A stretch of DNA of 64,000 nucleotides from Ptychodera flava (lineage: Eukaryota; Hemichordata; Enteropneusta; Ptychoderidae). The stretch covers positions 26,424,322 to 26,488,321 of the forward strand of contig NW_027248277.1 in NCBI RefSeq assembly GCF_041260155.1, written 5' to 3'. The translations under genes were made by a program, and so were the position numbers. Each line of letters begins with the position of its first letter. The stretch's first letter is position 1. The notes below the pieces were generated by a model. That model was not told the origin of the DNA. It ran no database searches and worked only from the letters and a program-made list of their open reading frames with translations. Shown one piece after another: positions 1,462 to 38,912 of this stretch.

Positions 1462-4271
1462 CAGGGTTTTACATGACGCGCATTTCTGCGTCCTTTACGC
1501 ATAAACCGGACGCAGGACCCCTCAAAAACTAAACCACGCGTCCCTTGGGACGCAGCAATATCTGTTGCTGGTGTACACCTTTCGAAGCTGCTGAACACGT
1601 AAAACACATCCAGTAAACCTTACCGACCCCGTACTTTAATGGAATGCTCCATAGTGCATTGGCCTCCACTGTTTCATAACCAATGGTAACCGCGGAAACA
1701 AATTCTATTGCTGTAAAAAGTTACTTTCAAAATGTAAACTGATTCTTAATTGGTCGATTTCTTGTTTGTGTCGATTAACACATTTTTATGCATCATGGCG
1801 GGTCGTGTCAAACAGGCCGATCTGCGAAGGTTTTTCGGCGGCCGCAGCAACCAGCACCATGCAGGTTTGGTCGAGGCCGAAACGGCAGCTACGCCATGCG
1901 ATACTGATACATCAGGTCCCCCGACCAAGTCAGCAAAATTACGAACATTCAACAGAAGTTGACTCAATAGATTTACTATAAATGGCTTCGATATTCTGAA
2001 GAGCGAAACGTCATGGAATGCGGTGTACGTTTGAAAGCGAATGTTACATGCCCGTTCATGGAAGGTTTTTGTAATTTTCAACATTCACTCTCACTCGTCA
2101 TCATTCAGGACTCGAAAAGTCGTCTCACAAGTGTTAAAATCCTAAGCATGAGGACCGGCAGTTGCAGGGTAAGAGCACAGTTACGAGTGGAGTGATACGT
2201 AGCGGTAAGAGTAACGAACTCGAGGCGTACGCTGCACAATTACGTACTGCTTACCTGATCGCTAAACGTGACCTTCCATGCACGCGATGTATTCACTGAC
2301 ATCATTCATCTGCAGAATCTGAACGGCTTAGACATTGAATATTACAAACGTCCTCAGATAGTTATGGAGTTTGAAGAGTGTATTCAACGTGCGATCGAGA
2401 AGTCCCTGATTGATAGTATACATGCAAGTGACGTCATCGGTATAATGTTGGATGAGACTTGTGTTGTGACATTTCATTCATAAGAAACTTGCAATATATG
2501 TTCGATATATTCAGAATGGCGAGGCGAATTTTTCTTTCCTCTGTAACCAGCAAATTACAGATGCCACTGCTGCAGAGATTGAAAACGCCTTGATTGAATT
2601 TTTGACTAGGAAAGAAATCTGTGACGCAGCCGTGGACAAAATATATGGACTAGGAACAGACGGGGCGGCCGTAATGACTGGCCGTTGAACGGGTTGGGTG
2701 CAAAATTAAAAGCCAGAAATCCCAACCTTGTTCAAGTGCATTGTGTTGCACATTGATTGAATCTTGCTGCTTCCCAAGCAGGCAGAGATATTGAATATTG
2801 CAAAGAATATCATAATATAATCCATTCATTGTATAAATACTTCATTGACTCCAGTGTGAGATATGACAAACTTAGGGAAATTCAAACTCTGTTGAATGGG
2901 AAAACAAAACAAATTACTGAGGCTACATCTGTTCGCTGGCTGTCGGTCGAATCAGCTGTCAAGATGGTTTTCATCAGTTTTGAGCCAATTGCCTTGGCAC
3001 TTGCAAGTGACAAAAAGGGGAAAGGCTGATGAGCTGTTGAAATTTATCTCTAATTCATTGTGTCTGCTATTCACTGCCTTATTGATTGATGTTCTTACTG
3101 TCATTGGAATTTTGAGCCTTACATTTCAGAAAGATTCTGTCACCTCTTATATCAAAAAAAGTGTTCAGTCTACTAGGGACACATTGAATACAATGACTAA
3201 TGATTCACACACTGTCAGAGAACGTCTTTAATGATTTGGGTGATGTTCCTGGCAATGGTCAGAAAAACACATACAAAAACATTCAAAATACTGACAATCA
3301 GCCACTCAGACAGAGGTTCTGTGATGCAAGAGAAAATTATATCAACAAACTGATGCAGAATTTAGATAGCAGATTTCCAGATGATGAGATGAATATTCTG
3401 GAGTGTTTTGATGTGATTCTCAACCCACACAGATATCCTGAAAATGTGGCCAACCTACCTGACTATGGGGTCAACCAGCTTGATCAACTGTTGATTCATT
3501 ATAACAATACACCAGGTATTGATGCTGATAGAGCTAGGGCACACTTCCTTGTTTACAAATACTTCACAAGATCTCATAGGGAGGCACTGAATTTTGATAT
3601 GTATATCAAGCTGTTGCTAACTGATTTTACAGAGGAGTATCCTGATTTTGCCATCCTAGCTAAAATTGCTCTTGTCATACCAGTGTCCTCTGCCCCATGT
3701 GAAAGGGGCTTTCAGTACAAAATGCCATCAAACAGAGGGCACGAAATAGACTCAATCCTCAAAGGCTTAATAGACTAATGTTCATCAAACTGGTTGGCCC
3801 CACCATAGATGATTTTGACTTCATGAACACTGCTACTGTAGGTTATTTGCTAAAGGAGCTGCTGGCAGAGTGTGAACTCAAACCTACTGGACTTGCTAGG
3901 TGTATGCCATTTCAGAGTATGAAATTACTTACCTTCTTGTCAATTTGACAAATTTGAATATTTGTTCAAATTTCACGTTGTGAACTTGTCATTAAAGTTA
4001 TGAGATAATATCATGAATAATGTTCTTTGAATTGATCAATGAGGGCCCTCAGTATGAACTAGAATTTTCATGTAGGAATTATTTTAAGAAATATGCAACT
4101 ATTTGCTGTGTGTTTTAATACTAATTGAACACAGTGAAGACCATGGCATTGATAACTATAAAACATTTTTGTGAAATAAATTGGGACCCCCATATTTTGA
4201 TGTAGGACTCCCATTTTCTAACACCAGGAGTCCCAGGGACTCTCAAAAGTTAAAAGTGATGTAAAACCCTG
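1462..4271 (+). mobile_element. hAT-superfamily DNA transposon, copy 1, decayed
   Basis: The element starts with CAGGGTTTTACATGACG and ends with GATGTAAAACCCTG, giving short terminal inverted repeats. The hexamer GATAAA abuts both ends (1456-1461 and 4272-4277). hAT elements normally leave 8 bp, so two bases may have changed. Its length of 2.81 kb and content match the inverted copy at 9760-12581. Internal homology is to hAT transposases of the KIAA1586/ZNF862-like group: a cysteine/histidine-rich N-terminal segment, an RNase H-like core and a C-terminal dimerisation domain. The coding region is broken, so it is not autonomous. Confidence 0.9.
1792..3790 (+). pseudogene. hAT transposase relic (KIAA1586-like)
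   Basis: The start codon near 1795 opens MAGRVKQADLRRFF. A Cys/His-rich stretch follows near 2010-2110. IMLDET near 2445 resembles the first catalytic aspartate region, and GTDGAAVMTG near 2655 the second. A VQVHCVAH motif lies near 2735. The longest intact piece, 3200-3778, ends with VIPVSSAPCERGF, the hallmark of the hAT C-terminal dimerisation domain. Several stops and frameshifts separate these pieces, for example stops near 1960 and 2480. Such a protein would cut and paste the element in the nucleus; this copy cannot. Copy 2 keeps parts that are broken here, which shows the two copies decayed separately. Confidence 0.85.
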
Positions 4272-7200
4272 GATAAATAATTGAATTTCTTACTTTTTTA
4301 TTTCGTTTGTTAATGAAAAGTCATTGAATATTTTTAGATGCTTTAAAAATTTCAAAACCGCTAAAAGCGACTATTTGGCCAAAATTCAAACGAAAACAGG
4401 AAAACCAAGCTCGAATCATGGGCTATTTCTCTATGAATACTCTCAGTCTCTGTAAGCTTACGCATGTTACTCTCGCCGATGCACGATATTTTGCATCGAA
4501 TTTTTCACTCATTTTCGTTGGTATGACTTTGAAACTCCAGGAAGCGATTGAGAAGAAAGGGTTACCTTGAATTATTGAGTTTTTTGCTGATAATTTGCCA
4601 AATTAAATGAGAAAAAACACTACGCAAATTTCCACACGCCTTTCATGTTCGTGTGGTACAACATGTGATCATGGAGGTAGTAGGAGACTGAGGTTTCTTG
4701 CACGGTCGTGCCGATGAAATGGGAAGCTGAAATTTTCGCTCGTAATTTTACAAACGAAATCGTAAATCCACTGAACTCAAAACTTCGTATTTTTTTGACA
4801 TATTTGAAACCCATGAGGAACGTAATTCATTCTCCCCTGCACAGTAAAAAGGAGATCGAAACGACATGCATGTCAGGACCAAACGCACGCATGATATTGT
4901 CCGTCAACATCCATAAATCTCGTAATTTACACTGACAGAACAAAAACAATATGATCGAGCATGGACGTTCTAACGTAAATGCATCATCGTCTATCGCATT
5001 TTCATGTAAGCCAATACACTCACACGTACGCTAAAGTTCAATTATAATGTCAATTCAACACGATCTGGTATTTTCGCTGATAGTGAGTGTGCAACGTGAA
5101 TGGTATGCCATGGAGGTATGCTCTGGTCGTTAAATAACACTGATCACGTGGTGTGACAAAATAGTTTTATGGAAGTTGTTGACGGAAATGATGTCAATTT
5201 CGCCTCTCCCAACTCTATAAGCTTCCTCAGTTACGTAACTTCGTCGCTAAAAACCAAGTTATAATGTGCATCAAACTATTGTTTTCAACCACTTCTAGTT
5301 CTGCAGTCATATTCAATTTTTACTACGGCCCTATGGGATTCGCACACACACACACATTTACGGCAACATCACCTTGCTACTAGTCAGCGCACTAAACCAC
5401 TTGGCCCCTCGATCCAACTCTAAAAAGAGTTGGTCGACACACCCAGTTAGATGTTACAATTTAGAACGCATACCAACAACACAATGTGCGTTGAGCAGAC
5501 GACACACAGACACGCACACACACAAACAAACATAAAAGCAAGAAGCTTTTAACTGAGCTATCAGACAAACATCTTCTTTCTTTCTGTTAAACACATGATG
5601 TAATGCAGTAGCTGGCAAGAATCCCCATAAAAGAAAAATGCGCATGAAATTGATTTTATCATGATGATGTGTGTGTTTTTTAACAATTCAAACCTGTAAC
5701 CAGTTAAATAATTTTGCCACAAACCATTATAGGAGACGTCCAGCGATCTTAATTTTAGAATGAATGTATACCTTTCTGCCTTGGTGACTTTGCTTTGCGT
5801 TCTTCGCTCACACATTGACCCCTATTGAAACTCAGTGTCCCCCTATTTTAACAATCACGGGACAGTGTCCAACCTTTACAATTCCTGGGCAAAACACTGA
5901 GTACGATACATATAGGGACGGCCAATGTTTGTTGGGCATAAAGATTGGGGAGAGTCACTTTTCTCAGCATCATTTTGAAAAACTCGCCCTCCCTCCCTAT
6001 AATTTTTTCCAGTCCCTTACCGGCCAGCACATGTTGAATTCGTGAACACACATATTGCAGGTAACCACTTCATGCATACAAGGGCTTTAAACGCTGATTT
6101 AACAGAAGATGAATCTATAAAGTGAATTAGAGTGAAAACTCTAATTGTGACTCGTGAATTTTGGCTCGCGGCACGTTAGCGCTGATCACAAATGACGTCA
6201 CTGCTCTCTCATTAATATGCATAAATAGACATTTGTCCGCATTTTCCTCATAAACGACGAAAATAAAATCTGCGAGTGTTAGAATGGCTATTTAGCATCA
6301 CACCTTATTCGTATGAATTGATGACTGAGACTACAAGCTGCAACAACAGCCGCGCATACAACGACAAAATTTGTCCGAATTTCAGCATATTCGTCCGCAA
6401 GTCGCGCGCGTACATCTATATTTAGTAGCAAACCCGAAATTACCCCTTTATTGGGACACAGTTGCCCTCGCCATGTATCGAACCACAGGTGACTTGCTCC
6501 AAGTCTGTGGGCATTTAATTATCAAAACAGAACAAACTGAAGGAAAGAACTTCGGCAGACGGCTAGGTGGTAGCTGGTACTTTGGTCGCGCGTGGAGAGT
6601 GAAAACTTTAAAAGCCTAATTGGCCCAACTGCTCAGTGCTCCGCTGAAGTGCCGAGAACAAGCCAGGCGACTAGCGACTGGGGCCTGTCTTCGACCGACA
6701 ACCTCAGGCAAAACTCAACCTACTGTACTGCAAGTATTGAGCGATCATAGCGTACACTCTTAACAAAATAACAGCCTGAAAAACTGTAAGCAAACTGTCA
6801 TAAATGAGCTGAAAGGGGACTCACATACATTAAGCTTGTCCGGTATCCATTTTTGGTTACCGCGCCGACATCTTGGACACGTCTCAGCAATATGGCACCT
6901 TGCAGACGATGACAAGGACCAGGGAGAACACATCTCCGAAAGTGGGACATGTGAATAATGACGAACTCAATCATCGCTGGTCGTGTACATTACTATGCAT
7001 CACAATAGATGAATACTCCTTGGAATATGTGAACGCTGCTGGCTGTCCATCACAACGACTGCAGACAGACGTCGACTGATATGATATTCACAGCGCGCAG
7101 TCTTGATCACGTGACCAAGTTAATAGTTGCCATGACACACGGACGCGTTCATCGTGTCTGTGTGTGTGATGACATATCAATTATTGAAGTGATTCTGACA

Positions 7201-8248: not shown

Positions 8249-8251
<3 letters not shown>

Positions 8252-8321
8252 GCGGATGAATAAAATTGCACACGTCTACTGATCTGCTTGTATATTTTCT
8301 GTTTATTCTGTTGGTAATTTT

Positions 8322-8358
8322 GATACAACGTTTCGTCCTAAAAGTAGGACTTCATCAG
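8322..8358 (-). ncRNA. Hammerhead-like core, mirror copy in left arm
   Basis: This is the reverse-complement twin of the motif at 8465-8501, carried by the other palindrome arm, with the same stem II and the same missing stem I. A transcript across both arms would fold on itself rather than show two free cores. Confidence 0.4.
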
Positions 8359-8464
8359 GTTGAAGATGTCTACAAGGGAGAATACAGACAAATACAGAAC
8401 AGTGTAAGGACAAAATTACACTGTTCTGTATTTGTCTGTATTCTCCCTTGTAGACATCTTCAAC

Positions 8465-8501
8465 CTGATGAAGTCCTACTTTTAGGACGAAACGTTGTAT
8501 C
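8465..8501 (+). ncRNA. Hammerhead-like ribozyme core, probably incomplete
   Basis: CTGATGA (8465-8471) is followed by one extra A, then a perfect 6-bp stem GTCCTA/TAGGAC with a CTTT loop, then GAAAC. This has the order of hammerhead core boxes and stem II. A minimal stem III (AC/GT around GTT) and a following A fit a type I layout. The flanks do not form a convincing stem I, and the extra A is unusual, so activity is doubtful. The same motif lies inverted in the left arm. Confidence 0.4.
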
Positions 8502-8573
8502 AAAATTACCAACAGAATAAACAGAAAATATACAAGCAGATCAGTAGACGTGTGCAATTTTATTCATCCGCTA

Positions 8574-9157
8574 TTACCAAACCACGCTACGAACAACACT
8601 GGGAGCTATCTGTACATCTCAAGTATACGTATATATATACAGTGTTCTCCCTGAATAAGGTAACAGGGGCGTGGCGCCCTCTTGTAAATTCCGAGCGCCC
8701 CCTTGCCAGAAATGAAAAAGATTTATTTTTTTGAAAAATAAAACAATAAAATGTACGGGAAAAAAGTTGACAGTGATTTACAAGCAAAATGCGAGCGTGA
8801 GCGTCGATCCTGCAGACTGCAAACGTAATTCTCATCGATCTTGCAAATCTCGCGAGTTTGTGATGTCATCCGAGATCATAAGCCCATGTGCAACTCATCG
8901 AAGGCAGCCATATTTGCATGGCTCAGTCCGTAACGTTACGTTAGCCACGGTCCTATAGGGACCGTGCATTAGGTAACCGACTTAGCTGAGTAAACATGGC
9001 AAGGAGCTGGAGGGTAACCAAGGACAGCAGAGTACACTGAAGTTTTTGTAGGAGGTTAGAATTTCGTTTGTGTATTCCTTCCCAAAGCAAAACAACCTAA
9101 TTTTAGGCTCGGTCGGACGTGTATCAGGATGAGAACACGTGAGTGTTATGGTGCTAA
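8574..9157. other. Non-coding stretch
   Basis: No gene is recognised. The open frames here lack family motifs. The sequence around 8665-8740 alternates GCGCCC-rich text with A/T runs, as in dispersed repeats, but I cannot assign it. Confidence 0.4.

Positions 9158-9687: not shown

Positions 9688-9759
<72 letters not shown>
9686..9759. repeat. (TA)n microsatellite, left flank of hAT copy 2
   Basis: A TA tract runs straight into the CAGGG end of the second hAT element and resumes at 12582-12603 beyond its other end. The element therefore inserted into a TA tract, and its target duplication cannot be told from the repeat. Confidence 0.9.
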
Positions 9760-9762
<3 letters not shown>

Positions 9763-12581
9763 GGTTTTACATCACTTTTTACTTTTGAGAGTCCCTGGGA
9801 CCCCTGGTGTTAGAAAATGGGAGTCCTACATCAAAATATGGGGGTCCCAATTTATTTCAAAAGAATATTTTATTGTTTATCCATGCCATGGTTTTCACTG
9901 TGTTCAATTAGTATTATAACACACGGCAAATGGTTGCACATTTCTTAAAATAATTCTTACATGAAAATTCTAGTTCATACTCTGCGGGCCCTCATTGATC
10001 AATTCAAAGAACACTATTCATAATTGAAATTATCTCATAACTTTAATGACAAGTTCACAACATTGTGAAATTTGAAAAAGTATTCAAATTTGTCAAATTG
10101 ACAGAAGGTAAGTAATTTCATACTCTGAAATGGCATCACCTAGCAAGTCCAGTAGGTTTAGTTCACACACTGCCAGCAGCTCCTTCAGCAAATAACCTAG
10201 CAGTGTTCATGAAGTCAAAATCATCTATGATGGGGCCAACCAGTTTGATGAACATTAATCTATTAAGCCTTTGAGGATTGAGTCTATTTCATGCCCTCTG
10301 TTTGATGGCATTTTGTACTGAAAAGCCCCTCTCACATGGGGCAGAGGACACTGGTATGACAAGAGCAATTTTAGCAAGAATGGCAAAATCAGGATACTCC
10401 TCTGTAAAATCAGTTAGCAACAGCTTGATATACATATCAAAATTCAGTGCGTCCCTATGAGATCTTGTGAAGTGTTTGTAAACAAGAAAGTGTGCCCTAG
10501 CTCTATTAGCATCAATACCTGGTGTATTGTTATAATGATTCAACAGTTGATCAAGCTGGTTGACCCCATAGTCAGGTAGGTTGGCCAAATTTTCAGGATA
10601 TCTGTGTGGGTTGAGAATCACATCAAAACATTCCAGAATATTCATCTCATCATCTGGAAATCTGCAATCTAAATTCTGCAGCAGTTTGTTGATATAATTT
10701 TCTCGTACACTACAGAACCTGTCTGAGTGGCTGATTGTCAGTGATTTGAATGTTTTTGTATGTGTTTTTCTGACCATTGCCAGGAACATCACCCAAATCA
10801 TTAAAACTTCTTTGACAGTGTGTGAATCATTAGTCATTGTATTCAATGTGTCCCTAGTAGACTGAACACTTTTTTTGATATGGGATAGGTTGACAGAATC
10901 TTTCTGAAATGTAATTCTCAAAATTCCAATCACAGTAAGGATATCAATCAATAAGGCAGTGAATAGCAGAAACAATGAATTGGAGACAAATTTCACAACC
11001 CATCAGCCCTTTCCCCCTTTTTTGTCACTTGCAAGTGCCAAGGCAATTGGCTAAAAACTGATGAAAATCATCTTTACAGCTGATTCAACCGACAGCCAGC
11101 GAACAGATGTAGGCTCAGTAATTTGTTTTGCCTTCCCATTCAACAGAGTTTGAATTTCTCTAAGTTTGTCATATCTCACACTAGAGTCATTAAAGTATTT
11201 ATACAATGAATGGATTATATTATGTTATTCTTTGCAATATTCAATATCTCTGCCTGCTTGAGAAGCAGCAAGATTCAATCGATGTGCAACACAGTGCACT
11301 TGAACAAGGTTGAGATTTCTGGCTTTTAATTTTGCACCCAACCCGTTCAAACGACCGGTCATTACGGCCGCCCCGTCTGTTCCTAGTCCATATGTTTTGT
11401 CTACGGCCGCGTCACAGATTTCTTTCCTAGTCAAAAATTCAATCAAGGCGTTTTCGATCCCTGCAGCAGTGGCATCTGTAATTTGCTGGTTACCGAGGAA
11501 AGAAACATTCGCCTCGCCATTCTGAATATATCGAACATATATGGCAAGTTTCTTATGAACGGTTATCAACTTATGTCACAAGTCTCATCCAACATGATAC
11601 CGATGAAATCACTTGCATGTATGCTATCAATCAGGGACTTCTCGATCACACGTTGAATACACAAACTCCATAACTATCTGAGGATGTTTGTAATATTCAA
11701 TGTCTAAGCCGTTCAGATTCTGTAGATGCATGATGTCAGTGAATACATCGCATGGAAGGTCACGTTTAGCGATCAGATAAACAGTACGTAATTGTGCAGC
11801 GTACGCCTCGAGTTCGTTACTCTTACCCTGCACCTGCCGGTCCTCTGCAGATTTGCGAGTAAGATTTGCGAGTAGTAAATTGTGACCTCAAGCTTAGGAT
11901 TTTAACACTTGTGAGATGACTTTTTGAGTCCTGATGACGAGTGAGAGTTGAATGTTGAAAATTAGAACAACCTTCCGTGGACGGGCATGTAACATTCGCT
12001 TTCAAACATACATCGCATTCCATGACGTTCGCTCTTCCGAATATCGAAGCCGTTTAAATCTATCGAGCCAACTTCTGTTGAATGTTCGTAATTTTGCTGA
12101 CTTGGTCGGGGGACCTGATGTATCAGTATCGCATGGCGTAGCTGCTGTTTCGGCCTCGACCAAACCTGCATAGTGCTGGTTGCTGCAGCCGCCGAAAAAC
12201 TTTCGCAGATCGGCTTGTTTTTTGGGTGTTTGACACGACCCCCCATGATGCATAAATATGTGTTAATCGCCGCAAACCTGAAATCGACCAATTAAAAATC
12301 AGTTTACATTTTGAAAGTCACTTTTTACCGTATTGAAATTTGTTTCCGCGGGTACCATTGGTCATCAAACAGTGGAGGCCAATGCACTACGGAGCATTCC
12401 ATTAAAGTAAGGGGTCGGTAAGGTTTACTGGGATGTGTTTTACGTGTTCAGCAACTTCGCGATGTATACACCAGCAACAGATATTTCTGCGTCCGAAGGG
12501 ACGCGTAGTTTACTTTTTGAGGGGTCCTGCGTCCGGTTTTATGCGTAAAGGACGCAGAAATGCGCGTCATGTAAAACCCTG
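9760..12581 (-). mobile_element. hAT-superfamily DNA transposon, copy 2, decayed
   Basis: This is a second 2.82-kb copy of the element at 1462-4271, in reverse orientation. It starts CAGGGTTTTACATCAC and ends TGCGCGTCATGTAAAACCCTG, with TA microsatellite on both sides. Similarity to copy 1 is high along its whole length by eye. Its transposase runs on the minus strand and is broken. Confidence 0.9.
10262..12260 (-). pseudogene. hAT transposase relic, copy 2
   Basis: Read on the minus strand, the relic begins near 12255 and ends near 10262. The segment 11569-11225 keeps a clean core: GLGTDGAAVMTGRLNGLGAK and VQVHCVAHRLNLAASQAG, the typical hAT second-aspartate and HCxAH region. The segment 10996-10289 keeps the C-terminal dimerisation domain with IPVSSAPCERGFSVQNAIKQ. 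Frameshifts separate the N-terminal Cys/His segment, the core and the C-terminus, and the last segment stops early. It is non-functional as it stands but preserves residues lost in copy 1. Confidence 0.85.
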
Positions 12582-12603
12582 TATATATATATATATATAT
12601 ATA

Positions 12604-16552: not shown

Positions 16553-17361
16553 AATAAATAAAAACCACGCCATGTCACATTCCGTGTCCTATTTCACTGT
16601 GAAAATTAGCAAGTTCATCTATCATGTAACCGTCGATCGTTCCCTAGCATTCTCAAAATTCATACCTGGTACTTAATTTGCTTCAAAAACGCTCGTTTTG
16701 TGTGATTTTCGGCCGAATTCGACGGACACATCGCCAAAACATAAGCGTGAGCAACATTCCGGTCACCTCACAGTGAACGTTGGGCACCTCCACTTTACTG
16801 ACGTTAACGCAGCGTACCCATGAGGGGTGACTGGAAGGTTGTTCACGCCTTATGTTTTGGCGAGGTGTCTTCTGAACTCGGCCTAAAATCACACAAATAT
16901 TCATACCTGATACTTTATCTGCTTACAAAATGCTCATTTTCAAGTGATTTCGCCTGAGGTCGAGAGACACCTCGCCAAAACATAAGCGTGAGTAACATTC
17001 CAGTCACCCCTCATGGGTAGGCGGCGCCAACGTCAGTAAAGTGGAGGTGCCCAGAGGTGACCGGAATGGTTGCTCACGCTTATGTTTTGGCGATGTGTCC
17101 GCCGAATTCAGCCGAAAATCACACAAAACGAGCGTTTTTTAAGCAATTAAGTACCAGGTATGAATTTTGAGAATGCTAGGGAACGATCGACGGTTACATG
17201 ATAGATGAACTTGCTAATTTTCACAGTGAAATCGGACACGGAATGTGACATGGCGTGGTTTTTATAGCCATTCTGTTTCCAGACTTGGGTTGTTTCTCGC
17301 TTATGTACACTCGTCTATGGGGCGAATAGTCCCAGAGCTGAATAGCTCTCGAGCGACTGTG

Positions 17362-20540: not shown

Positions 20541-21393
20541 ACTTTGTAAGAGACGCCATGACAAGTTCTTTCTCAGTGGGTTCTACAGTATCTCCAGGTG
20601 GCTTTGAATTAAACGTTACGAGACAGCGAACGATACAGAAATTGTATGACATAAAGTAGAAGTAAACGTTCGTGTACATTGAAACGTTGAATATACTGTA
20701 CAGTATAGCAGTCGAAATATTCGAACTTCGATCATTTGTTTTCACCAGGATGTGACGCAAAAAAATTACTCAATCATTAATCGCGACGCAAAACACCCGG
20801 AAGTTCAGCGGCGGGGATAGAGGGAAATCGTCGAAGTTGGGGGCAACAGAACTGCAACAAAACACCGTCAAACAGTTCAAGCAAGATATGGTCATGTCAG
20901 TTAAATTAAAATATATAAAAATACTATCAAATTCGCAACACGTTGCTGGGCCGAAAAAAAGACAACTGAATTACATGTTGTCACACCATCCACGTATATA
21001 GTGGATGTGTTTGAGTAAAAACTGTCCCCTGCGTGCATTGTTAATACTATAGGAAATGCTTCACATGTGTCTGTTTGTGTTTGACTGAAAAAACTTCAAA
21101 ACGAACACCCACATGCGGTAGACCAGAAAAGTGTTGTAAAAATTTGAGAGTCTGAATATTTTCCCTAAGGCCCATTCTACCCTGAGTGAGAAGTGCATCA
21201 ACTAATCGGACGTGTTTTAAGGTTTTGCAAATACTTTGGTCATTGTGGAAAAATTAGCCAATCCTCTGTCAAATTCATGAATAGAAACGAGGGTCACTGT
21301 GCATAGTTTAGCTTATGTGAGACGAATTGAAGTATACTGTTTCAGTGATCGTCGGATTGCCATATGTGAGTTTTCACCTGAAAACGATCGCGT
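20541..21393. other. Non-coding stretch
   Basis: No recognised gene or repeat is present before the TA tract at 21394. Confidence 0.4.
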
Positions 21394-21397
21394 TTAT

Positions 21398-21476
<79 letters not shown>

Positions 21477-21668
21477 ATTGATTGCTTGTCAATGCAGGCA
21501 AAGTATAGTGCTCAATGCATTTCTGCAGGACGGTAATAATGGGAATCTAGGAACTTGTAGTTGTCACTCATAAACAGTCTCATTCCCGCCATATCCTCAC
21601 TCCTGATGATTGCTTAGCGCAAGAAACAGCCTGTAGAGTGCACAAACTACAAGTTCCTAGATTCTCAG

Positions 21669-21736
<68 letters not shown>
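21394..21736. repeat. Small hammerhead-bearing insert between two TA tracts
   Basis: TA tracts at 21394-21472 and 21669-21736 both contain the same TATAATATATA irregularity, as if one tract were duplicated or split by the insert. The roughly 196-bp insert holds an outer 19-bp perfect stem (about 21544-21562 with 21646-21664) that encloses the hammerhead ribozyme at 21598-21640. There is no protein. Insertion of a small retroelement unit, Penelope-terminal or retrozyme-like, into a TA repeat is the simplest reading, and it is inferred. Confidence 0.7.
21598..21640 (+). ncRNA. Type I hammerhead self-cleaving ribozyme
   Basis: All parts are visible in order. Stem I 5' strand is CACTC (21598-21602). 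The core box is CTGATGA (21603-21609). Stem II is TTGC/GCAA with loop TTAGC (21610-21622), followed by GAA (21623-21625). Stem III is ACA/TGT with loop GCC (21626-21634). The cleavage-site A is 21635, and the stem I 3' strand GAGTG (21636-21640) is fully complementary to CACTC. Predicted cleavage lies between 21635 and 21636. Very short stem III is typical of hammerheads in Penelope-like elements and other eukaryotic retroelements. The first stem II pair is U-A rather than the usual G-C. An outer 19-bp stem encloses it. Activity is not proven. Confidence 0.85.
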
Positions 21737-21933
21737 TGTGAATGACCGCCCATGAACAAACAGATTAAGTCAGTAGCATTTTGTGACATCCTAAGGGTGG
21801 AGTATGGTACTCAAGGTTTCAGAGTGTACGGAACACAAACTATAACATGGTACGTGTAAAAAAAAATATGTATGCAAAAACGTAGACCCTTGAGCGACAC
21901 CCTCGCCCAGCACTTAACTGTCGAACTAGTCTC

Positions 21934-23290: not shown

Positions 23291-23841
23291 CTGACCCACC
23301 CCCCAGGCCCTTATGTTAAATTACTCTAAAAGACCATAAAAATATTCTTGATGGCCTTAATTTGTGAACAACATGTACAGTAAAAGTGGTCAACTTTGAT
23401 GCAGTCTTGCTGATGCATTTTATGAGGCTTGAACTCACAATATCTACATTACTATTCGTACTAGCTTAGCAGTCATTAAAACCCCTACAAATAGGCGTTT
23501 CAACTAGCAGCGGCCTGGTATCTCATGTAGCTGTACTGTGATAATGTTCAAGAGAATCCATAGGATAGCTAGGTGTGCTCTCAATCAGGCAAAACAACAG
23601 TTAGCAATAATAACAACTGTAATAAATATCAATTTCTGCAAGTCATTTAAAATATATACCACCAAGGGCACAGTATTGCTCCTATCTGACAAACAAAAAG
23701 ACGTATTCCTATTTCCACTTATTCACTCAAAATACTATTGTGTTTGCAAAGAGTTTGAACTTTCAATTTTCATGGGCAGAATTCCGTTTTAACAGCCACT
23801 TTTCAATTTTGTAGATCAACAATAAAATTTGATGGTCCTTG

Positions 23842-24411
23842 TGTTATGTAGGTCATTTACCCCACACTCATCATGACCTGAGTTCAATTAGTCTAGAACA
23901 TTCTCAAGGTCACTGCCCTTGATGACCTAACAACCTTGAATTCAATTAGTCATGTTTGGAATGTTCTGGAAAGTTGATTAGTTGTGTAAGGGAGATAATT
24001 TTAGAACAGTAATTAGCATGTCAATAAAAGTTCTAGATTGTTCTTATATGCCTTTATAAAAGGGACGTGCTCAGCTTCCAGTCAGACTTTTGGGATCGTG
24101 TCTCTTGTGTGTTACTAAACTCCAGCAGTAGTCATTCTCAAGACTTTCAAGACCTTCACTGCCAACGCTGGATTTATACTGTGGACTTCTTGCAGTTTCA
24201 AGCCTGCAAGCCAAAGGACTGTTCATTCATCCAACTGACTGTTACAACTCTGAGACTGGAGCTTTGCCGTCCCAGCTGAGATAAGTAGTCTGTACACTTT
24301 TAAAGCTTGTACTCTATCCCTGACTTAGCAATTAGTTTTTTTTCGTAATAAATTTTGTTTAAACGGAAACTGCTGAGTTCACCCTTTTGTTCGTTTTCTC
24401 TGCACGTAACA
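23842..24411 (+). repeat. 5' LTR of the Gmr1-like element
   Basis: The LTR runs TGTTATGTAGG to CACGTAACA. A TATA-box-like TTTATAAAAG lies at about 24053-24062, and AATAAA near 24348 could serve as a polyadenylation signal, so the U3-R-U5 parts can be roughly placed. Confidence 0.92.
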
Positions 24412-24414
24412 AAT

Positions 24415-24432
24415 TGGGGGCTCGTCCGGGAT
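24415..24432 (+). other. Primer binding site, tRNA-Pro type
   Basis: The 18 bases TGGGGGCTCGTCCGGGAT follow the 5' LTR after three bases. They match the site complementary to the tRNA-Pro 3' end known from murine leukaemia viruses, so reverse transcription in this family was probably primed by tRNA-Pro. Confidence 0.8.
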
Positions 24433-24513
24433 ACGAATATTTTGAGCCGTTTGACAACATTTTGCCTGCCTTTTTAAAACTACAGTATTCTGTGAACTCA
24501 GCGAAATTTAATC

Positions 24514-25880
24514 ATGGCGGAATTTAAACCAGAGGAAATGGATGACCTTGATCAGGACACATTTGATTCCCTCAGAAAAGACGACCTCATTGCACTGGCC
24601 AATTTCCTTAAAGTAGAAGTCAAAAGATCTATGCGCAAGAGGGAAATACAGTACCGTATTGCCAAACATCTAGTTGATTAGGCCAATTTGAGGAATCCAC
24701 CCTGAAGATTATGAGCCCGAGTCTACCTCTGAACTCAGAAAATTAGAATTAGAATTGAAGACAAATTTGGAGATCAAGAAACTAGAATTACAAATGGAAA
24801 AAGAGAGACAGGCATTAGAAAAGAAAAAATACAAATGCAATTAGAAATGGAAGAAAGACAGAGAGAGAAAGACAGGCAGGAAGATTAGAAATGAACGTTT
24901 GGAGCTTGGACAGTCAGGAAAATTCTTCCCTTCAGATAAGTTTGACATCACTAAGCATTTCAGGTTAGTTCCCCCTTTCCAAGAAAAGGATGTTGATAAT
25001 ATTTCCTTCATTTTGAGAAAATTGCTCAGAGTCTGAACTGGCCTAAGGAGTCCTGGTCTATGCTTTTGCAGAGTGCTTTGGTGGGTAAAGCCAGAGAAAT
25101 TTACATTCAGTTGTCAGTAGAGCAGGCTTCAAATTATGATTCTGTGAAGGAATTAATTCTCAAGGGTTATGAGTTGGTGCCTGAAGCTTACCGTCAGAAA
25201 TTTAGGGATTGTGAGAAGGCGAAAGACCAAACTTATGTTGAATTTGCTCGAACAAAAGAACAACTGTTTGATCGCTGGTGTTCTTCTGAAAAGGTTAGTC
25301 AGAATTATGACAAATTACGACAACTTGTTTTGATTGAGGAATTTAAAAGGTGCATCCGGAGTGACATCAAGACGTTTATCAATGAACAAAAGGCAGATAC
25401 ATTAGAGTTGCTGCACGTTTGGCCGATGATTATTCATTGACCCACAAATCTTCATTTCTCAGCAAACCATCCCAGTCCTTTTCCTACAGAAACAATGCAG
25501 GTAAATTTAACTCGTCCTTTTCATCCAAGAATTTTTCAAAGGACAGTAGAAAATCAAATGACAACAGTTCACAGAGTTCAAGTAACACTTCCACATCATC
25601 AATCCCAAGTCTCAATCTCCTTCTGACAAACAGTTCGGTACACTTTCTTGTAATTATTGTAAGAAAGACGGCCATTTAATGTCAGAGTGTTTCAAATTGA
25701 AAAGAAAACGTGAAGGTCAAAGTAGTCAAAGTGGATCTAAGCCCACCGGCTTTATTTCTTCATCAACTCAATTAGAGTCTAATAATGCGTGCAACACATT
25801 TTCTGAGGTTAAACCCCTCTTATCCCCAATTAATGAGGTCAAGGTCAATTCTTCTCAAGATAGCATTATGGGTATTTTTG
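24514..25880 (+). mobile_element. gag-like region of the LTR element (fossil)
   Basis: This part starts with MAEFKPEEMDDLDQDTFDSL just after the leader. It includes a charged coiled-coil-like stretch, a capsid-like helical part near 25060-25430 and a basic Cys/His-containing region near 25650. It is broken. The assignment rests on position and composition. Confidence 0.65.
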
Positions 25881-26650
25881 AACCATTTATTCATGATGGT
25901 TTTATATCACTTTCTAGTGATTTGTCTTCCGCTACCCCTGTCAAAATTTTAAGAGATACCAGGGCTTCCCAGTCTCTTTTGTTGGCAGATACCCTGCCGT
26001 TTTCTGAAAAGTCATTTTCAGGTTCTAAAGTTCTTATTAAGGGGGTAGATTGTAATGACTACATTTCTGTTCCTCTCCATAATGTCTATTTGTCTTCGGA
26101 CTTTGTTTCTGGACCTGTGACTTTAGGTATTAGGCCTTTTTTGCCTTTTGAAGGGATTCACCTTCTTCTTGGAAACGACCTTGCTGGGGACAAGGTCATT
26201 ACTAATCCACTTGTGACTGATAATCCTAGTTTAGATCAGGATCCAGAGCCAATTGAACAAGAGATACCCGGTTTATTTCCTTCATGTGCCATTACTCGAG
26301 CCATGTCAAAGAAAACTTCCGAGAATCAAAATACTCTCAAAAATAATGTCACAGATGTTGACTTAAATGACACCTTTCTCAGTCAGGTGTTTGACACGGA
26401 TCATTCCGTTATCCCTCGTGGATTTGAAACTTCCAGTAAAACTTCTGCTGACCAAAGTCAGACATTTTCTAGATCAAATCTCATTGCAGAACAACACAAA
26501 GACCCAGATATTTTGTCTTTGTTTGACAGGGTAGATGATGAAGGTAAAACTTCAGATAGCTCTGTTTCCTATTATACAAAATCTGGTATTCTCATGCGTA
26601 AATGGAGACCTCCAGATGTTTTGGTTGATGACGATTGGGCTATAAAACAA
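25880..26650 (+). mobile_element. Protease region of the LTR element (fossil)
   Basis: The text near 25940-26190 resembles a retropepsin domain: a KILRDTRAS segment at the usual catalytic place, then hydrophobic strands ending in HLLLGNDLAG. It sits between gag and integrase, as in Gmr1 elements. Confidence 0.55.
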
Positions 26651-26686
26651 TAAATTGAGGTTCCAAAGCCCTATCGTGCTGAAATA

Positions 26687-27880
26687 TTGTGCCTGGCCCA
26701 TGAAACCCCCTGGGCTGGTCACTTAGGAGTCAGGAAAACTTATCATAAAATTCTCAGTCACTTTTATTGGCCTAATCTCAGGCAGGATGTAACACATTTC
26801 TGTAAAACTTGTCACATATGTCAAATGGTAGGAAAGCCAAATCAGACCATTCCAAAGGCCCCTTTACAGCCGATTCCTGCATTTCAAGAACCATTTAGTA
26901 GGATACTAATAGACTGTGTTGGGCCCCTACCAAAAACAAGATCAGGAAATGAGTACATGCTGACAATAATGTGTACATCAACTCGGTTCCCAGAAGCCAT
27001 ACCACTGAGAAACATAAAGACAAAGACTATAGTGAGAGCTTTAGTCAAATTTTTCACTTTATTTGGCCTCCCTAAATGTGTCCAGTCCGATCAAGGCTCC
27101 AACTTTATGTCTGGTATTTTTCAACAAGTAATGGATCAGCTAGGCATTAAACAGTACAGGTCATCCGCCTATCATCCAGAAAGTCAGGGTGCTCTTGAGC
27201 GATTTCATCAAACTTTGAAAAACATGATTAGGACCTACTGTTTTGACACAGAGAAGCAGTGGGATGAAGGAATTCATTTTCTGCTCTTTGCTGTTAGAGA
27301 GTCAATTCAAGAGTCTCTTGGTTTTAACCCATTTGAGCTTGTATTTGGACATACAGTCCGTGGCCCACTCAAGCTCGTTAAAGAGAAATTCTTATCAGAC
27401 GATGATGATTGTCTGAATATTTTGCAAAATGTGTCAGATTTTCGTACAAAACTCTCTAAAGCATGTGAATTAGCCAGAGAAAATCTTGAGTCATCTCAGC
27501 AGTCAATGAAAATCAAATACGATAAAAGCACCTCAAAACGGAAGTTTGAACCAGGTCAAAAAGTTCTTGTTCTACTTCCAATTCCTGGCAAACCACTCCA
27601 TGCTCGTTACTTTGGGCCATACCTAATTGATAAAAAATTGAGCGATTTAAATTACATCATAATAACACCTGACAGGCGAAAACAAAAACAGCTATGTCAC
27701 ATAAATATGCTTAAGCCATATTTGGATAGGGATAATCCTACTATAACTCAGCCTGTCAGTGCAGTCAGTTCAAACCATTATGAAGATAGTGATACTGAAA
27801 CTGACTTGAGTGAAAATACTCTAACTCAAAGCTGGGCTCGGTCAAGCTTCAGAACTCAGAAATCCTGGAGAAGCTGGAGT
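26687..27880 (+). mobile_element. Integrase region of the LTR element
   Basis: An N-terminal HHCC zinc-binding part contains GHLGVRKTYHKIL and CKTCHICQ. The catalytic core follows with D, D and E in IDCVGP, SDQGSNF and PESQGALERFH. A C-terminal DNA-binding segment includes GQKVLVLLP and ARYFGPYLI. It precedes reverse transcriptase, the reverse of the canonical Ty3/gypsy order. Confidence 0.9.
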
Positions 27881-27889
27881 CTACAAAGT

Positions 27890-29269
27890 TGGCACACCTC
27901 CAGCCAGAACAACAACAACAGGTGAAAGAACTGCTCCACGAATATAAACACCTGTTTCAAGATGTTCCAACGAGGACAAACGTCATCTATCACGACGTTG
28001 ATGTTGGGGACAGTAAGCCTGTAAAACAACATCCATACAGACTGAATCCAACAAAAGCGAAATATCTCCAGAAGAAGTCAAATACCTGCTGGACAATGAC
28101 TTTATTGAACCCAGTAAAAGTAACTGGAGTTCGCCGTGCATACTTGTTCCCAAATCAGATCACAGTTATCGCATGTGCACGGACTTTAGGAAGGTCAACA
28201 CTTTAACAAAGACAGACACTTTCCCAATCCCGAGGATTGATGACTGCATCGACCGAGTGGGAAAAGCCAAGTATGTGACAAAATTTGACCTACTGAAGGG
28301 ATTTTGGCAAGTCCCTCTGACGGATCGTGCTCGTGAAATATCCGCCTTTGTTACACCAGACGGATTGTTCCAGTACAAGGTGATGCCATTCGGAATGAAG
28401 AACTCTCCGGCAACGTTCCAACGGATGATCAACGACGTCATATCCGGGCTAGACGGGTGTGCAGCTTACGTTGACGACGTAGTCCTGTATAGTGACACCT
28501 GGGAGGAACACATCAAGCTCATGCGAAAGTTCTTTGAGAGACTGAGCAAAGCAATGTTGACTGTCAACCTTGCCAAATCTGAGTTTGGTTGGGCAAGGGT
28601 AACTTACCTCGGACATACTGTAGGACAGGGTGAGGTAAAACCTGTTGATGCCAAAATCAGTGCCATTTCAAGTTTTCCCATACCAACTGCAAACGACAAC
28701 TGATGCGCTTTCTCGGTATGGCTGGTTACTACAGAAAATTCTGTCCAAATTTCTCCACAATTACTGAGCCTTTGACTAACTTACTTAAAAAGAAAGTAAA
28801 GTTTGTTTGGTCAGAGCAATGCCAACAGGCATTTGATACACTTAAAGCCATACTGCAAAGTGCTCCAGTGTTGTCTGCACCAGATTTCACTTTGCCATTC
28901 AAATTAGCTGTGGATGCTAGTGATACGGCTGCTGGTGCTGTTTTATTGCAAGAGGATAGTCATGGGGTAGATCATCCTGTTTGCTATTTTTCACGCAAAT
29001 TTAACAAATCCCAGAGAAACTACTCTACAATTGAAAAAGAGTGTTTATCTTTGATATTAGCTTTACAGCATTTTGAAGTTTATGTTACTTCTTCAAATCA
29101 GCCAATAGTGGTTTATATTGATCACAACCCTCTTGTTTTTCTGCAGAAATTTAAAGGCAAAAATCAGAGATTGCTAAGATGGAGTTTAATGTTACAGGAG
29201 TTTAATCTTGATATTAGACATATCAAAGGCAGAGACAATTTAATTGCAGACTGTCTTTCTCGTATTTAG
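27890..29269 (+). mobile_element. Reverse transcriptase and RNase H region of the LTR element
   Basis: The reverse transcriptase contains the Ty3/gypsy signatures TKFDLLKGFWQVPL, MPFGMKNSPATFQ and the catalytic YVDD near 28470. RNase H follows with LAVDASDTAAGAVL near 28910 and ends with DNLIADCLSRI, typical for gypsy elements. The region is broken. Confidence 0.9.
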
Positions 29270-29401
29270 AGTTCATTGTTGTTCACTTTCAAGAAGTTTT
29301 ACTTTAGAAAAAAAAAATTCGAGTACTTAAATCTTTTAAAAGATAACATTTCCAAAAGAAAGATTTTTCTTTGAAAAATTTTCTTTTTTGAAGACGGGGT
29401 G

Positions 29402-29973
29402 TGTTATGTAGGTCATTTCCCCCACACTCATCATGACCTGAGTTCAATTAGTCTAGAACATTCTCAAGGTCACTGCCCTTGATGACCTCACAACCTTGAA
29501 TTCAATTAGTCATGTTTGGAATGTTCTGGAAAGTTGATTAGTTGTGTAAGGGAGATAATTTTAGAACAGTAATTAGCATGTCAATAAAAGTTCTAGATTG
29601 TTCTTATATGCCTTTATAAAAGGGACGTGCTCAGCTTCCAGTCAGACTTTTGGGATCGTGTCTCTTGTGTGTTACTAAACTCCAGCAGTAGTCATTCTCA
29701 AGACTTTTCAAGACCTTCACTGCCAACGCTGGATTTATACTGTGGACTTCTGTGCAGTTTCAAGCCTGCAAGCCAAAGGACTGTTCATTCATCCAACTGA
29801 CTGTTACAACTCTGAGACTGGAGCTTTGCCGTCCCAGCTGAGATAAGTAGTCTGTACACTTTTAAAGCTTGTACTCTATCCCTGACTTAGCAATTAGTTT
29901 TTTTTCGTAATAAATTTTGTTTAAACGGAAACTGCTGAGTTCACCCTTTTGTTCGTTTTCTCTGCACGTAACA
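29402..29973 (+). repeat. 3' LTR of the Gmr1-like element
   Basis: It is nearly identical to the 5' LTR and preceded by a purine-rich GAAGACGGGG tract. The 3' flank begins CTTG, matching the four bases before the 5' LTR. Confidence 0.92.
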
Positions 29974-32184
29974 CTTGCTTGAAATGTTAAGATTTACTCA
30001 GAGTTAAGTTATACACAAGTTGTTTGTGTAAGTAAGTTTGTGTGGTGAAGTTACCTGATATTATCATTCATCACTCATCTTATTCAATCTACACATGATT
30101 TCACTCGGCTGCCTTCATCTTTGTGAAGATTTACTTAATTAAGTGATACCATGACAGGTTTTTTTGTTTATGTAACATAATGATTGGAACTGATACAAAT
30201 AAACTGGAGTCTGTTTTATTGGTATGGTGCATCTTGCCATATGCCTTGGATTGAAATCCCTCATCAGTGTATGGGGTTTCCTCCATGAAATATTTGCTAA
30301 AGTTGATCCACTACATAAAACATAAGCTCACAACTTTTTTCTAGATCATATTTCACTACAAATTGGCATCAAATAAAACTACATATTTCAGTGTCTTCAA
30401 AATTGATTTACAAGGTATTCCGGGTTGGAATAGGTCATTCAAGCTTGCGGACTAATATATTGGCTCCAAAAACAAAAAATCATTGGTTCCCCCAGTTTGA
30501 AAAATGATTTGGCTTAGGTAGTCTCCAGGGATTTTTATAAGAAAATGCAAAGCTATCAGATAAACACCAATGAGACAAAAGCACTTTTTGACCGAAATTG
30601 ACAAAAATTGCTCCAAAAATACAAAATTTTGCATTTTCTCACTGTATAAAAATATCTGACTTAAGTCATCCTAAGGACCTGTATACTGAATATCAAAAAG
30701 TCTGACAAGGAGTTTTGAAGAAAAAAATAGATCTACAATGACAAAAATAATCTCAAAAATACAAAGTTGCATATCTTGGCACGATTTTACAAAATCTTAT
30801 TGCTGCCATCCTAAGGGACATGTATAATCAATATTAATGTGTCTGACCAGAACTTTTGAATGATATTTTTGGTTAAATATGACAATAATTGCCTTAAAAT
30901 TTAAGTTTTAAAATATTTCATAACAATATGAACAAATGTCAATAAGGTTATCCCTGCAGAACAGTATTTTAGATTTCTGTGGCAATACTAGAGTTTATTT
31001 GCTTCTTCAAGCATAACCATTCTTTTCCTTGACATAAGGTAAACTTCAGCCTCCTCCAACAACACAATTGTGATGTAGTCTACAACAAACCTGAGTGAGA
31101 AAAATAGAAATATAGATATATATTAATACATTTTTGTATATTTCAAATGCTATGCTGACAAGCTAAATATTGATTTTTTAGCAATCTTTTTGTAGTAAAA
31201 TAACAACTTACAGTGGACAAATATAAATAATGAAAATAATATCAAAAGTAAGCATTACAGGCCCTCTAAATTTTTGAGAGTTGTAATATAATAACTTACA
31301 CATTATCCCAAAACCATTCACAGGATACAGCTCAAGTTGTAACTACAAAATGGTACACCAATGTGAGTAGCAACATATGAACATAATACCCTACTTACAT
31401 TGACGTTTCTTTCACATTCCTCTTCCATCTGTTGTTAAGGCAGTGTCATATCATTCAAAGATACTGTCAAAACAAACAGAAATCCATTATTACATCAGAA
31501 TGAATAAACACTGTTAACAGACGTTTCATATTAAAAAGTATTCTTTTTTAATACTCTCTGTTTTCAACAGACATGCCATAAACCTTCAAAAGACACAGTT
31601 TATGTTTACTTTGCATATAAAAATGATATTAGTCTTGCAATGGTTATGTATAAGTGGAGCTGACAACAGTTGCCCACAATGGGCAGTGACACATATGATT
31701 TGAATAAAATATCACTTTTAACATGGTCGTCATTTCCTTCTTTTGGCAGGTTACATCTGAACATATTTTACAGTACATGATCCTCATACAAATTAAAATG
31801 CCTCTTATTCAAAATGTAAGAACTTTATTGCCAATCAAAAAAAGTTTTGTTTAACAACATTTAATAAAAAAATGTGAAAATCTAAGAAAGTTTGACCAAG
31901 TCAGTATGGAGTTAAATTGTTTGGAAATCTTGAAATTGGAAGAATAGTGAAGCCAGGAAATTGGGTGATTTGCAAACATTTGCAAAAATTAACACTTCTT
32001 TATCAAGCAACCTACGACTGCTTGACAGCCTTGAAGATGAACCCAAATAATAATATTTTAATCTTGGGTTAACAATTTCATTAAATTAAATGAATGTCTA
32101 CAAAAAAGTGATTTTGGTGCAAAATACCATGTGTTGGGTGCAGCGCCCCTTAATTAGCAAGTTTTATACCACTGCAAAGTCTCT
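29974..32184. other. Stretch without genes, with diverged tandem units
   Basis: No coding homology is seen. Between about 30530 and 30900 roughly three diverged units share GACAAAAATxxxCTCAAAAATACAAA and GCCATCCTAAGG-like text at about 140-bp spacing. The rest is AT-rich and unremarkable. Confidence 0.45.
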
Positions 32185-34371
32185 GTGCAACCAGGTGACA
32201 CATTCTGACTCAGCATGATCTAACAGCAGATTCCTGCATAAAATTTTGATTTGAAAACTTGAATCACTTTTAATAGCATGAAAAGAGCAAAGGAGAAACT
32301 TAGATGACAAAGCCTTATAAGGGAAAGAGAGATGTACCACATGACTCCGTGCAACCAGGTGACACATTTGACTCAGCATACTCCTAAAGCAGACGACTGC
32401 ATAAAATTTTGATTTTGAATCACTTTGTAATAGTATAAAAAGAGCAAAACCAATTAGAAAAATTAGCATTCACAGCCTTAGCACAGTAAGAGAGATGCAC
32501 CAGAGTGTCCATGCAACCAGGTGACACATGGTGACTAGCATACTCCAAATGCAGATTCTGCAAAAATATTTGATTAGACAACTTAAATTAGCTGGCGATA
32601 GCATAGAAAGATGAAAACCAATGAGAAAACTTAGAAGTCACAGCCTTAGCACAGTAAGAGAGATGCACCAGAGTATCCGTGCAATCAGGTGACACATGGT
32701 GACTCAGCATACTAAAAATGCAGTTCCTGCAAAAATTAGATTAGACAACTTAAATCAGTTGGCGATAGCATAGAAAGATGAAAACAATGAGTAAACTTAG
32801 AAGTCACAGCCTTAGCACAGTAAGAGAGATGCACCAGAGTGTCCGTGCACCAGGTGACACATGGTGACTCAGCATACTAAAAAGCAGTTCCTGCAAAATA
32901 TTTAGATTAGACAACTTAAATCAGTTGGCGATAGCATAGAAAGATGAAAACCAATGAGAAAACTTAGAAGTCACAGCCTTAGCACAGTAAGAGAGATGCA
33001 CCAGAGTGTCCGTGCAACCAGGTGACACATGGTGACTCAGCATACTAAAAATGCAGTTCCTGCAAAAAATTTAGATTAGACAACTTAAATCAGTTGGCGA
33101 TAGCATAGAAAGATGAAAACCAATGAGAAAACTTAGAAGTCACAGCCATAGCACAGTAAGAGAGATGCACCAGAGTGTCCGTGCAACCAGGTGACACATG
33201 GTGACTCAGCATACTAAAAATGCAGTTCCTGCAAAAAATTAGATTAGACAACTTAAATCAGTTGGCGATAGCATAGAAAGATGAAAACAAATGAGAAAAC
33301 TTAGAAGTCACAGCCTTAGCACAGTAAGAGAAGCACCAGAGTGTCCGTGCAACCAGGTGACACATGGTGACTCAGCATACTAAAAATGCAGTTCCTGCAA
33401 AAAATTTAGATTAGACAACTTAAATCAGTTGGCGATAGCATAGAAAGATGAAAACCAATGAGAAAACTTAGCAGTCACAGCCTTAGCACAGTAAGAGAGA
33501 TGCACCAGAGTGTCCGTGCAACCAGGTGACACATGGTGACTCAGCATACTAAAAATGCAGTTCCTGCAAAAAATTTAGATTAGACAACCTAAATCAGTTG
33601 GCGATAGCATAGAAAGATGAAAACCAATGAGAAAACTTAGCAGTCACAGCCTTAGCACAGTAAGAGAGATGCACCAGAGTGTCCGTGCAACCAGGTGACA
33701 CATGGTGACTAGCATACTCCAAATGCAGATTCTGCAAAAATATTGATTAGACAACCTTCAGTTGGCAATAGCATAGAAAGATGAAAACCAATGGCAAAAC
33801 TTAGAAGTCACAGCATAGCACACTAAGAGAGATGCACCAGAGTGTCCGTGCAACCAGGTGACACATGGTGACTAGCATACTCCAAATGCAGATTCTGCAA
33901 AAAAATTTGATTAGACAACTTAAATCAGTTGGCGATAGCATAGAAAGATGAAAACCAATGAGAAAACTTAGCATCCACAGCCTTAGCACACTATAAAAGA
34001 GAGATGCGCCAGAGTGTCTCGCATGCAACCAGGTTACACATTGTGACTCAGCATACTCAAAATGCAGTTCCTGCAAATAATTTAATTAGACAACTTAAAT
34101 CAATTAGTGATAGCATAGAAAGATGAAAACCAATGAGAAAACTTAGAAGTCACAGCCTTAGCACAGTAAGAGAGATGCACCAGAGTGTCCGTGCAACCAG
34201 GTGACACATGGTGACTAGCATACTCCAAATGCAGATTCTGCAAAAATATTTGATTAGACAACTTAAATTAGTTGGCGATAGCATAGAAAGATGATAAACC
34301 ACTGGGAAAACTTAGAAGTCACAGCCATAGCACACTAAGAGAGATGCGCCGGAGTGTCCATGCAACCAGGT
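32185..34371. repeat. Tandem satellite, ~168-bp unit, ~13 copies
   Basis: Units begin GTGCAACCAGGTGACACATG and recur near 32185, 32349, 32511, 32678, 32846, 33012, 33181, 33348, 33516, 33686, 33848, 34024, 34191 and 34361, so the period is 162-176. The central copies (about 32680-33690) are most alike, while edge copies are more diverged, the pattern expected of unequal exchange. Minus-strand open frames across it are by-products. Confidence 0.92.
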
Positions 34372-35351: not shown

Positions 35352-36118
35352 TACCGTAGCTGCAATGATTGCAGGAGGAGTCGCTCGTCTGGACTTTGTA
35401 CGCGACCCCAAGGTCGCGTACAAAGTCAATCCAGACGAACAACATCGTCCCTAGCTGCAAAATTGTAGCGCTACGGTGAGGCGGTCGGTGATTTTTGGTT
35501 TTTTGCGACTTCGCTCACCAGTAGCGCTACAAGGCCGATGGCCCTGGGGAGTATCATATAAGCGCGTCGTACTCGACCAGCGTTTTGATGTGGAATGCAA
35601 CATATTTACTGCATTTGGTCGTACCGATTTATCACTACTGAAGACTAAACAGTATACTGCACTAACTTTGTCATTTATGGGGTTGGAATTTGTTCAAACA
35701 CGACGATCGCGTTCCGAAACATTTCTGGGAGCCGTCATTACCAACTTCCGGTAATGGCGGCTCCCACAAACACCGACGCCCCACGCTCAATGTTTTCAGA
35801 ACGCGATCGTCGTGTTTGAACAAATTCCAACCCCATAAATGACAAAGTTAGTGCAGTATACTGTTTAGTCTTCAGTAGTGATAAATCGGTACGACCAAAT
35901 GCAGTAAATATGTTGCATTCCACATCAAAACGCCTGGTCGAGTACGACGCGCTTATATGATACTCCCCAGGGCCATCGGCCTTGTAGCGCTACTGGTGAG
36001 CGAAGTCGCAAAAACCAAAAATCCCCGACCGCCTCACCGTAGCGCTACAATTTTGCAGCTACCCCTCCCCTACAATCATTGCAGCTACCAGGTCGCGTAC
36101 AAAGTCAATCCAGACGAG
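35352..36118. mobile_element. Nested foldback elements
   Basis: The core element (35452-36061) begins TAGCTGCAAAATTGTAGCGC and ends with its reverse complement. Its arms of about 290-310 bp face each other around a 7-base loop at about 35742-35748 (GGAGCCGTCATTACC facing GGTAATGGCGGCTCC). It sits inside an outer repeat whose GGTCGCGTACAAAGTC block occurs inverted near 35392, direct near 35413 and direct near 36092. The same core occurs at 45131-45879. There is no coding sequence; peptides read from both arms are identical only because of the palindrome. Confidence 0.85.
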
Positions 36119-38520: not shown

Positions 38521-38912
38521 CTGATTAGTAGTATTACTGACGAACAACAACGGATCATCAAACAAGATTGACCAATATAGAGATTAAATGTCTTAGGCTT
38601 TGATTTCATCAATAGTAATGACTAGGTTGACAGATGCTGTCATTTCTGATATTGTAGACAATATTCCCTACATTCATTGTAAGGACAATACACTCACAGA
38701 GTTTGTGTTTGATTCACATATTGCCTCAGTGGTGTGGAAAATCATTAGTGAAAAATTAGAGTGAAACTATTAGGATTTACATACAACTTAACATACTTGC
38801 ATTCAGAAAAGTGTCATGGTTTTCAATATGTCTAGGCTGAACAAGATCAGGAATGCTGGACTTAGAGGGCTGTAGAGCAAAAGGATTGGTGTTAGGCTAG
38901 CTGCATGAGAAA
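38521..38912. other. Tail of the RecQ relic, unassigned
   Basis: Stop-rich text follows the helicase motifs. Fragments such as ISSITDEQQRIIKQ may be remnants of the same gene, but I cannot align them with confidence. Confidence 0.35.

Follow-up and report, generated by a model that had tools for sequence, protein, structure and literature searches.

We analysed a window of 64,000 nt from the hemichordate Ptychodera flava (contig NW_027248277.1, positions 26,424,322 to 26,488,321 of assembly GCF_041260155.1). At 21473-21668 of this window, a 196-bp insert with a GC fraction of 0.42 lies between two TA tracts and contains a motif that resembles a type I hammerhead ribozyme (Table 1). A sequence-only reading of the same DNA had described the motif as a complete minimal hammerhead, supported by an enclosing outer stem, that may define a small non-coding retroelement comparable to retrozymes or Penelope termini. 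We find that the motif closely resembles hammerheads in its letters, and that a relic or a chance resemblance is more probable than a working ribozyme.

Table 1 Features of the insert and its surroundings (window positions)
Feature	Position	Strand	Basis
Left TA tract	21395-21472	.	Repeat listing
66 bp separating left TA tract from inverted repeat; search of the window found no relatives	21473-21538	+	
Left arm of inverted repeat, tip CACTC at 21565-21569	21539-21569	+	Fold, self-match
Type I hammerhead-like motif	21598-21640	+	Letter boxes; models R1 and R2
Stem-loop II, TTGC-TTAGC-GCAA, with atypical U10.1-A11.1	21610-21622	+	Letters; natural pair counts
Right arm of inverted repeat, GAGTG at tip	21636-21668	+	Fold, self-match
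Right TA tract	21669-21735	.	Repeat listing

Letter by letter, the hammerhead boxes proved to lie where the sequence-only reading had placed them. Stem I pairs CACTC (21598-21602) with GAGTG (21636-21640) and closes perfectly, as claimed, with five Watson-Crick bp; the core box CTGATGA (21603-21609), stem II (21610-21613 with 21619-21622; 4 bp, loop TTAGC), the GAA box (21623-21625) and stem III (ACA, 21626-21628, with TGT, 21632-21634; 3 bp, loop GCC) follow in order, and the predicted cleavage base is A21635, which places the predicted cut at 21635/21636. The invariant type I core (CTGANGA, GAA, A15.1-U16.1 and H17) is present, and the three helices of 5, 4 and 3 bp around it are built from twelve pairs, all of them Watson-Crick. 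A structural scan of both strands of the window for type I and type III arrangements returned this motif as its single match. By eye, we saw no pairing past stem I that would suit a loop contact between helices I and II, and the stability of the bare 43-mer was ordinary (z -0.93).

The likeness to hammerheads was confirmed by two covariance models, neither of which includes any sequence of the window. Model R1 was built from 16 of 67 distinct type I hammerheads in viral contigs and searched with filters off; model R2 was built from 81 uncurated matches (E up to 1, weak matches kept) in 52 of 209 viral-contig loci, and may contain a few non-hammerheads. Both placed the motif first in the window, R1 at 21.2 bits (E 9.2e-5) and R2 at 28.8 bits (E 1.2e-7, a rough value, as are all R2 E-values, since the calibration was short). 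The runners-up, which scored 17.1 bits in one model and 17.4 bits in the other, were two identical motifs at 8326-8362 (minus strand) and 8461-8497 (plus strand), and the remaining R2 matches in the window reached at most 11.7 bits.

The Rfam covariance scan that the sequence-only reading had proposed was not decisive. At gathering cut-offs nothing was reported anywhere in the window, and at E up to 10 the region around the motif gave 12 matches with no hammerhead family among them. Of ten control loci, drawn from viral contigs and bearing well-formed predicted hammerheads, only one was credited with a hammerhead at gathering cut-offs, and a 43-nt control hammerhead scored at best E 8.9, through the type III model. 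Because nine of the ten control loci were missed as well, the silence of Rfam on the motif is weak evidence.

Base of stem II

What the motif lacks, and why it did not hold up as a complete hammerhead, is an ordinary pair at the base of stem II, where positions 10.1 and 11.1 form U-A, a point on which the sequence-only reading was silent. We compared this pair with those of predicted hammerheads in viral contigs by means of two scans in which 10.1 and 11.1 were left free, one giving at least 132 matches in at least 120 loci and the other 94 matches in 89 loci. In 198 of the 226 matches listed, stems I and III are those of a hammerhead under a rule which would admit the motif too, and the 10.1-11.1 pair of these 198 is G-C in 96, U.U in 99, G-U in three and U-A in none; a single U-A occurs among the 28 listed matches without such stems. 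When we counted more widely over these loci, with overlap between the two counts, there were 248 distinct cases, with G-C in 141, U.U in 97, G-U in four, A.A and U.C in three each, and again no U-A. The RF00008 consensus likewise has G and C at these positions. The exact stem II with its U-A was present in seven loci of genome_contigs, none of which has hammerhead stems. By these letter counts, the U-A pair distinguishes the motif from the natural hammerheads that we examined, and we regard it as a strong, not an absolute, distinguishing feature.

Predicted hammerheads in viral contigs fall mainly into two classes by their 10.1-11.1 pair, G-C and U.U, and an inner stem II of TGC/GCA goes with U.U in 82 of 94 matches.

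Competing hairpin

Stem I of the motif is contested by an inverted repeat of about 130 bp, which spans approximately 21539-21668 and is edged by TA dinucleotides (21537-21538 and 21669-21670), though TA is ubiquitous here. The outer stem of 19 bp that had been described around the motif is real, but longer than stated: Watson-Crick pairing runs unbroken for 20 bp (21543-21562 with 21645-21664), and the predicted fold of 21540-21668 comprises 30 pairs in all, with two bulges, ending at CACTC (21565-21569) and GAGTG (21636-21640). The 129-nt inverted-repeat RNA has a predicted energy of -53.4 kcal/mol (z -8.64), a value that none of 200 shuffles equalled. In this fold GAGTG pairs with the earlier CACTC rather than with that of 21598-21602, a rival partner that the sequence-only reading had also passed over. 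Hence the enclosing stem, which had been taken to support a ribozyme, competes with the hammerhead fold instead.

The size of this competition was estimated by forcing the hammerhead fold. Forcing costs 4.6 kcal/mol in the bare 43-mer and 14.8 kcal/mol in context, against maxima of 3.8 and 8.5 kcal/mol, respectively, among 67 natural viral-contig hammerheads. The cost in context arises because GAGTG, the 3' strand of stem I, is taken up by the earlier CACTC within the 30-bp inverted repeat. For an RNA that ends at 21640 the cost is 8.0 kcal/mol, indicating that co-transcriptional folding would ease the competition without removing it. The case illustrates how such motifs may be judged: what discriminates is the 10.1-11.1 pair, together with the energy gap to competing folds, whereas Rfam cut-offs missed most controls.

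Origin of the motif

Miniature inverted-repeat transposable elements (MITEs) and foldback elements are short and non-coding, carry a near-terminal inverted repeat and are set in TA repeats. The insert has the terminal inverted repeats and lacks coding capacity, as these elements do, and is like them in its short length, the near-terminal position of its repeat and the TA on both sides, the last as the sequence-only reading had reported; it differs from them in that the window yielded no further copy. The accompanying claim that no protein lies nearby holds as far as it was tested, with no Pfam match above the curated cut-off for ten of the twelve open reading frames of at least 70 aa listed between 17828 and 22254. 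The two frames of that size that extend into the insert (21321-21533; 21583-21810, minus strand) have no Pfam match, and the insert contains no RNA polymerase III boxes under the patterns used. Since other inserts in the window adjoin TA tracts or fold back, a short foldback or MITE-like insert is the ordinary reading of this DNA.

We favour, with a rough probability of 0.47, the view that the motif is a vestigial hammerhead, probably of real hammerhead descent, carried by a short foldback or MITE-like insert among TA repeats. On this view a short insert, non-coding and with an inverted repeat close to its ends, would have settled among TA repeats, bearing a motif that descended from a real hammerhead and whose core boxes remained intact. 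Stem II would have changed at its base, and stem I would have lost its 3' strand to the long competing hairpin; the insert may have moved as a unit. Transcripts would be expected, from the predicted energies, to fold mostly as the 30-bp hairpin and to cleave themselves poorly or not at all. Besides the R1 and R2 scores and the rarity of the motif in simulated windows, two observations count toward this reading. The U-A pair is one base from U.U, the pair of 99 of the 198 full-stem matches listed, and an axolotl hammerhead has been described whose helix II has a U.U mismatch at its base (PMC7229834). In addition, a short helix III is found in known hammerheads of animals, both the type I hammerheads of that study and those of schistosome W-elements, for which there is functional evidence (PMC8490949).

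Could the motif instead be a product of chance, its hammerhead boxes spelled by accident in the loop and right arm of an otherwise ordinary inverted-repeat insert, a short one among TA repeats? We consider this a serious possibility, if a somewhat doubtful one. It would account for a pair at 10.1-11.1 that is absent from the 198 full-stem viral-contig matches listed, for a hammerhead fold that is strongly disfavoured energetically, and for GAGTG, which the inverted repeat explains by itself. The plain pattern without stems is ordinary in the window (7 matches, 4.87 expected). In windows simulated with a first-order Markov model, matches as good arose twice in 300 windows under a loose rule and four times in 9149 under a tighter one (G-U pairs allowed, loops up to about 20), so that thousands of windows would yield such cases. 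Under a strict rule that demands Watson-Crick pairs and short loops, however, there was no match in the 9149 windows, and the twelve Watson-Crick pairs of the motif thus went unmatched; the R2 score of 28.8 bits also stands well apart from a noise level of at most 11.7 bits. We conclude that the motif is unusual for one window, yet of a kind that could be met when thousands of windows are scanned.

Several points weigh against the reading as a vestigial hammerhead. With no second copy of the insert found in the 64-kb window, descent is not demonstrable by comparison. The continuation of the inverted repeat through the motif is borderline, 88-133 of 2000 shuffles being as good in one test and 46 of 500 in another. 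The pair counts come from predicted hammerheads in viral contigs, selected by set letters in the inner part of stem II, and other pairs may be tolerated in animals: compensatory changes at 10.1-11.1 have been reported for Dolichopoda cave crickets (PMC2837043), so that other pairs do occur in animals and the objection raised by U-A is weakened. The predicted energies, finally, take no account of tertiary contacts, and a Penelope hammerhead has been reported that requires its protein to cleave (PMC11167929); a poor fold need not, for both reasons, mean inactivity.

A further reading is that of a working hammerhead in a small retrozyme-like element, whose transcripts would be cut at 21635/21636 and circularised and which would spread by an RNA-mediated route into TA-rich sites; perhaps it would act as a dimer, as amphibian hammerheads do. 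We think this unlikely. The R1 and R2 scores are in keeping with it, as are the length and GC fraction of the insert, which fit the low-GC type I repeats of 150-450 bp in animals (PMC7229834). The same study describes animal retrozymes as short tandem repeats, from dimers to multimers, each with one type I hammerhead. These non-LTR (long terminal repeat) retrozymes share with the insert the type I permutation, the short helix III, a host segment of about 200 bp and low GC, but theirs stand in tandem repeats and were checked for contacts between helices I and II; the insert differs in its single copy, its U-A pair and its competing hairpin. A search of the window for further copies found none, and the pairing past stem I that a helix I-II contact would need was not seen. 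A tandem unit made of a TA tract plus the insert was considered and rejected, the flanks of the two TA tracts being different.

Schistosome W-elements are similar in that inverted repeats are reported inside them (PMC8490949). Their hammerheads lie in satellite-like repeat families with functional evidence, whereas no family is known for the insert, and some of their candidates have core mutations, whereas the core of our motif is intact. Penelope-like elements share the minimal size and AT-rich surroundings of the motif (PMC6155905, PMC11167929). Their hammerheads are minimal motifs, usually without helix III (PMC6155905), and they carry an open reading frame for reverse transcriptase and GIY-YIG; the motif has a helix III of 3 bp, and no GIY-YIG or Penelope reverse transcriptase was seen in 30 of the 165 open reading frames of at least 70 aa, those that were scanned. 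Viral contigs held no exact relatives of the motif, of the arm or of the Penelope-type motif. With no second copy found in 64 kb, no tandem unit seen and a helix III present, a retrozyme- or Penelope-like element is not established, and the claim of a working retroelement is unlikely. If active after all, the motif would extend the known type I ribozymes by a hammerhead that is masked by a hairpin and present in a single copy.

A foldback at 8249-8574, which adjoins a TA tract, has 159-bp arms that are 100% identical and an 8-nt spacer. Each arm holds CAAC-CTGATGAAGTCC...GGACGAAAC-GTTG, and these are the two identical motifs (8326-8362, minus strand; 8461-8497, plus strand) that came second in both models. 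By their letters, they resemble a Penelope-type minimal hammerhead without helix III, and do so more clearly than does the motif at 21598-21640. One might imagine a TA-dwelling foldback family with hammerheads masked by their own hairpin arm, which pairs one strand of stem I. Cleavage would then be restricted to RNA still being transcribed, to dimers or to RNA assisted by a protein, the inverted repeat would serve as a switch, and the perfect foldback would be a younger relative in architecture. We consider such a family very improbable.

Other elements in the window

The window is rich in other mobile and repeated DNA. A hAT-like element is present in two inverted copies that are 91% identical, at 9752-12589 and 1454-4279, with CAGGGTTTTACAT termini and a hAT dimerisation domain; the former, with the element itself at about 9760-12581, is flanked by TA tracts at both ends. 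The region 23840-29973 has LTRs that are 99.3% identical, a SCAN domain match, and an integrase ahead of reverse transcriptase and RNase H, and is probably a young LTR retrotransposon. Its integrase-first order recalls the Gmr1-like Ty3/gypsy elements of deuterostomes. Four long palindromes, at 16558-17265, 35452-36061, 38910-39410 and 45239-45548, match themselves at 86%, 91%, 76% and 73% identity, respectively, which suggests that they may be further foldback elements. A satellite array at 32178-34371 has a period of 169 bp and 13.1 copies.
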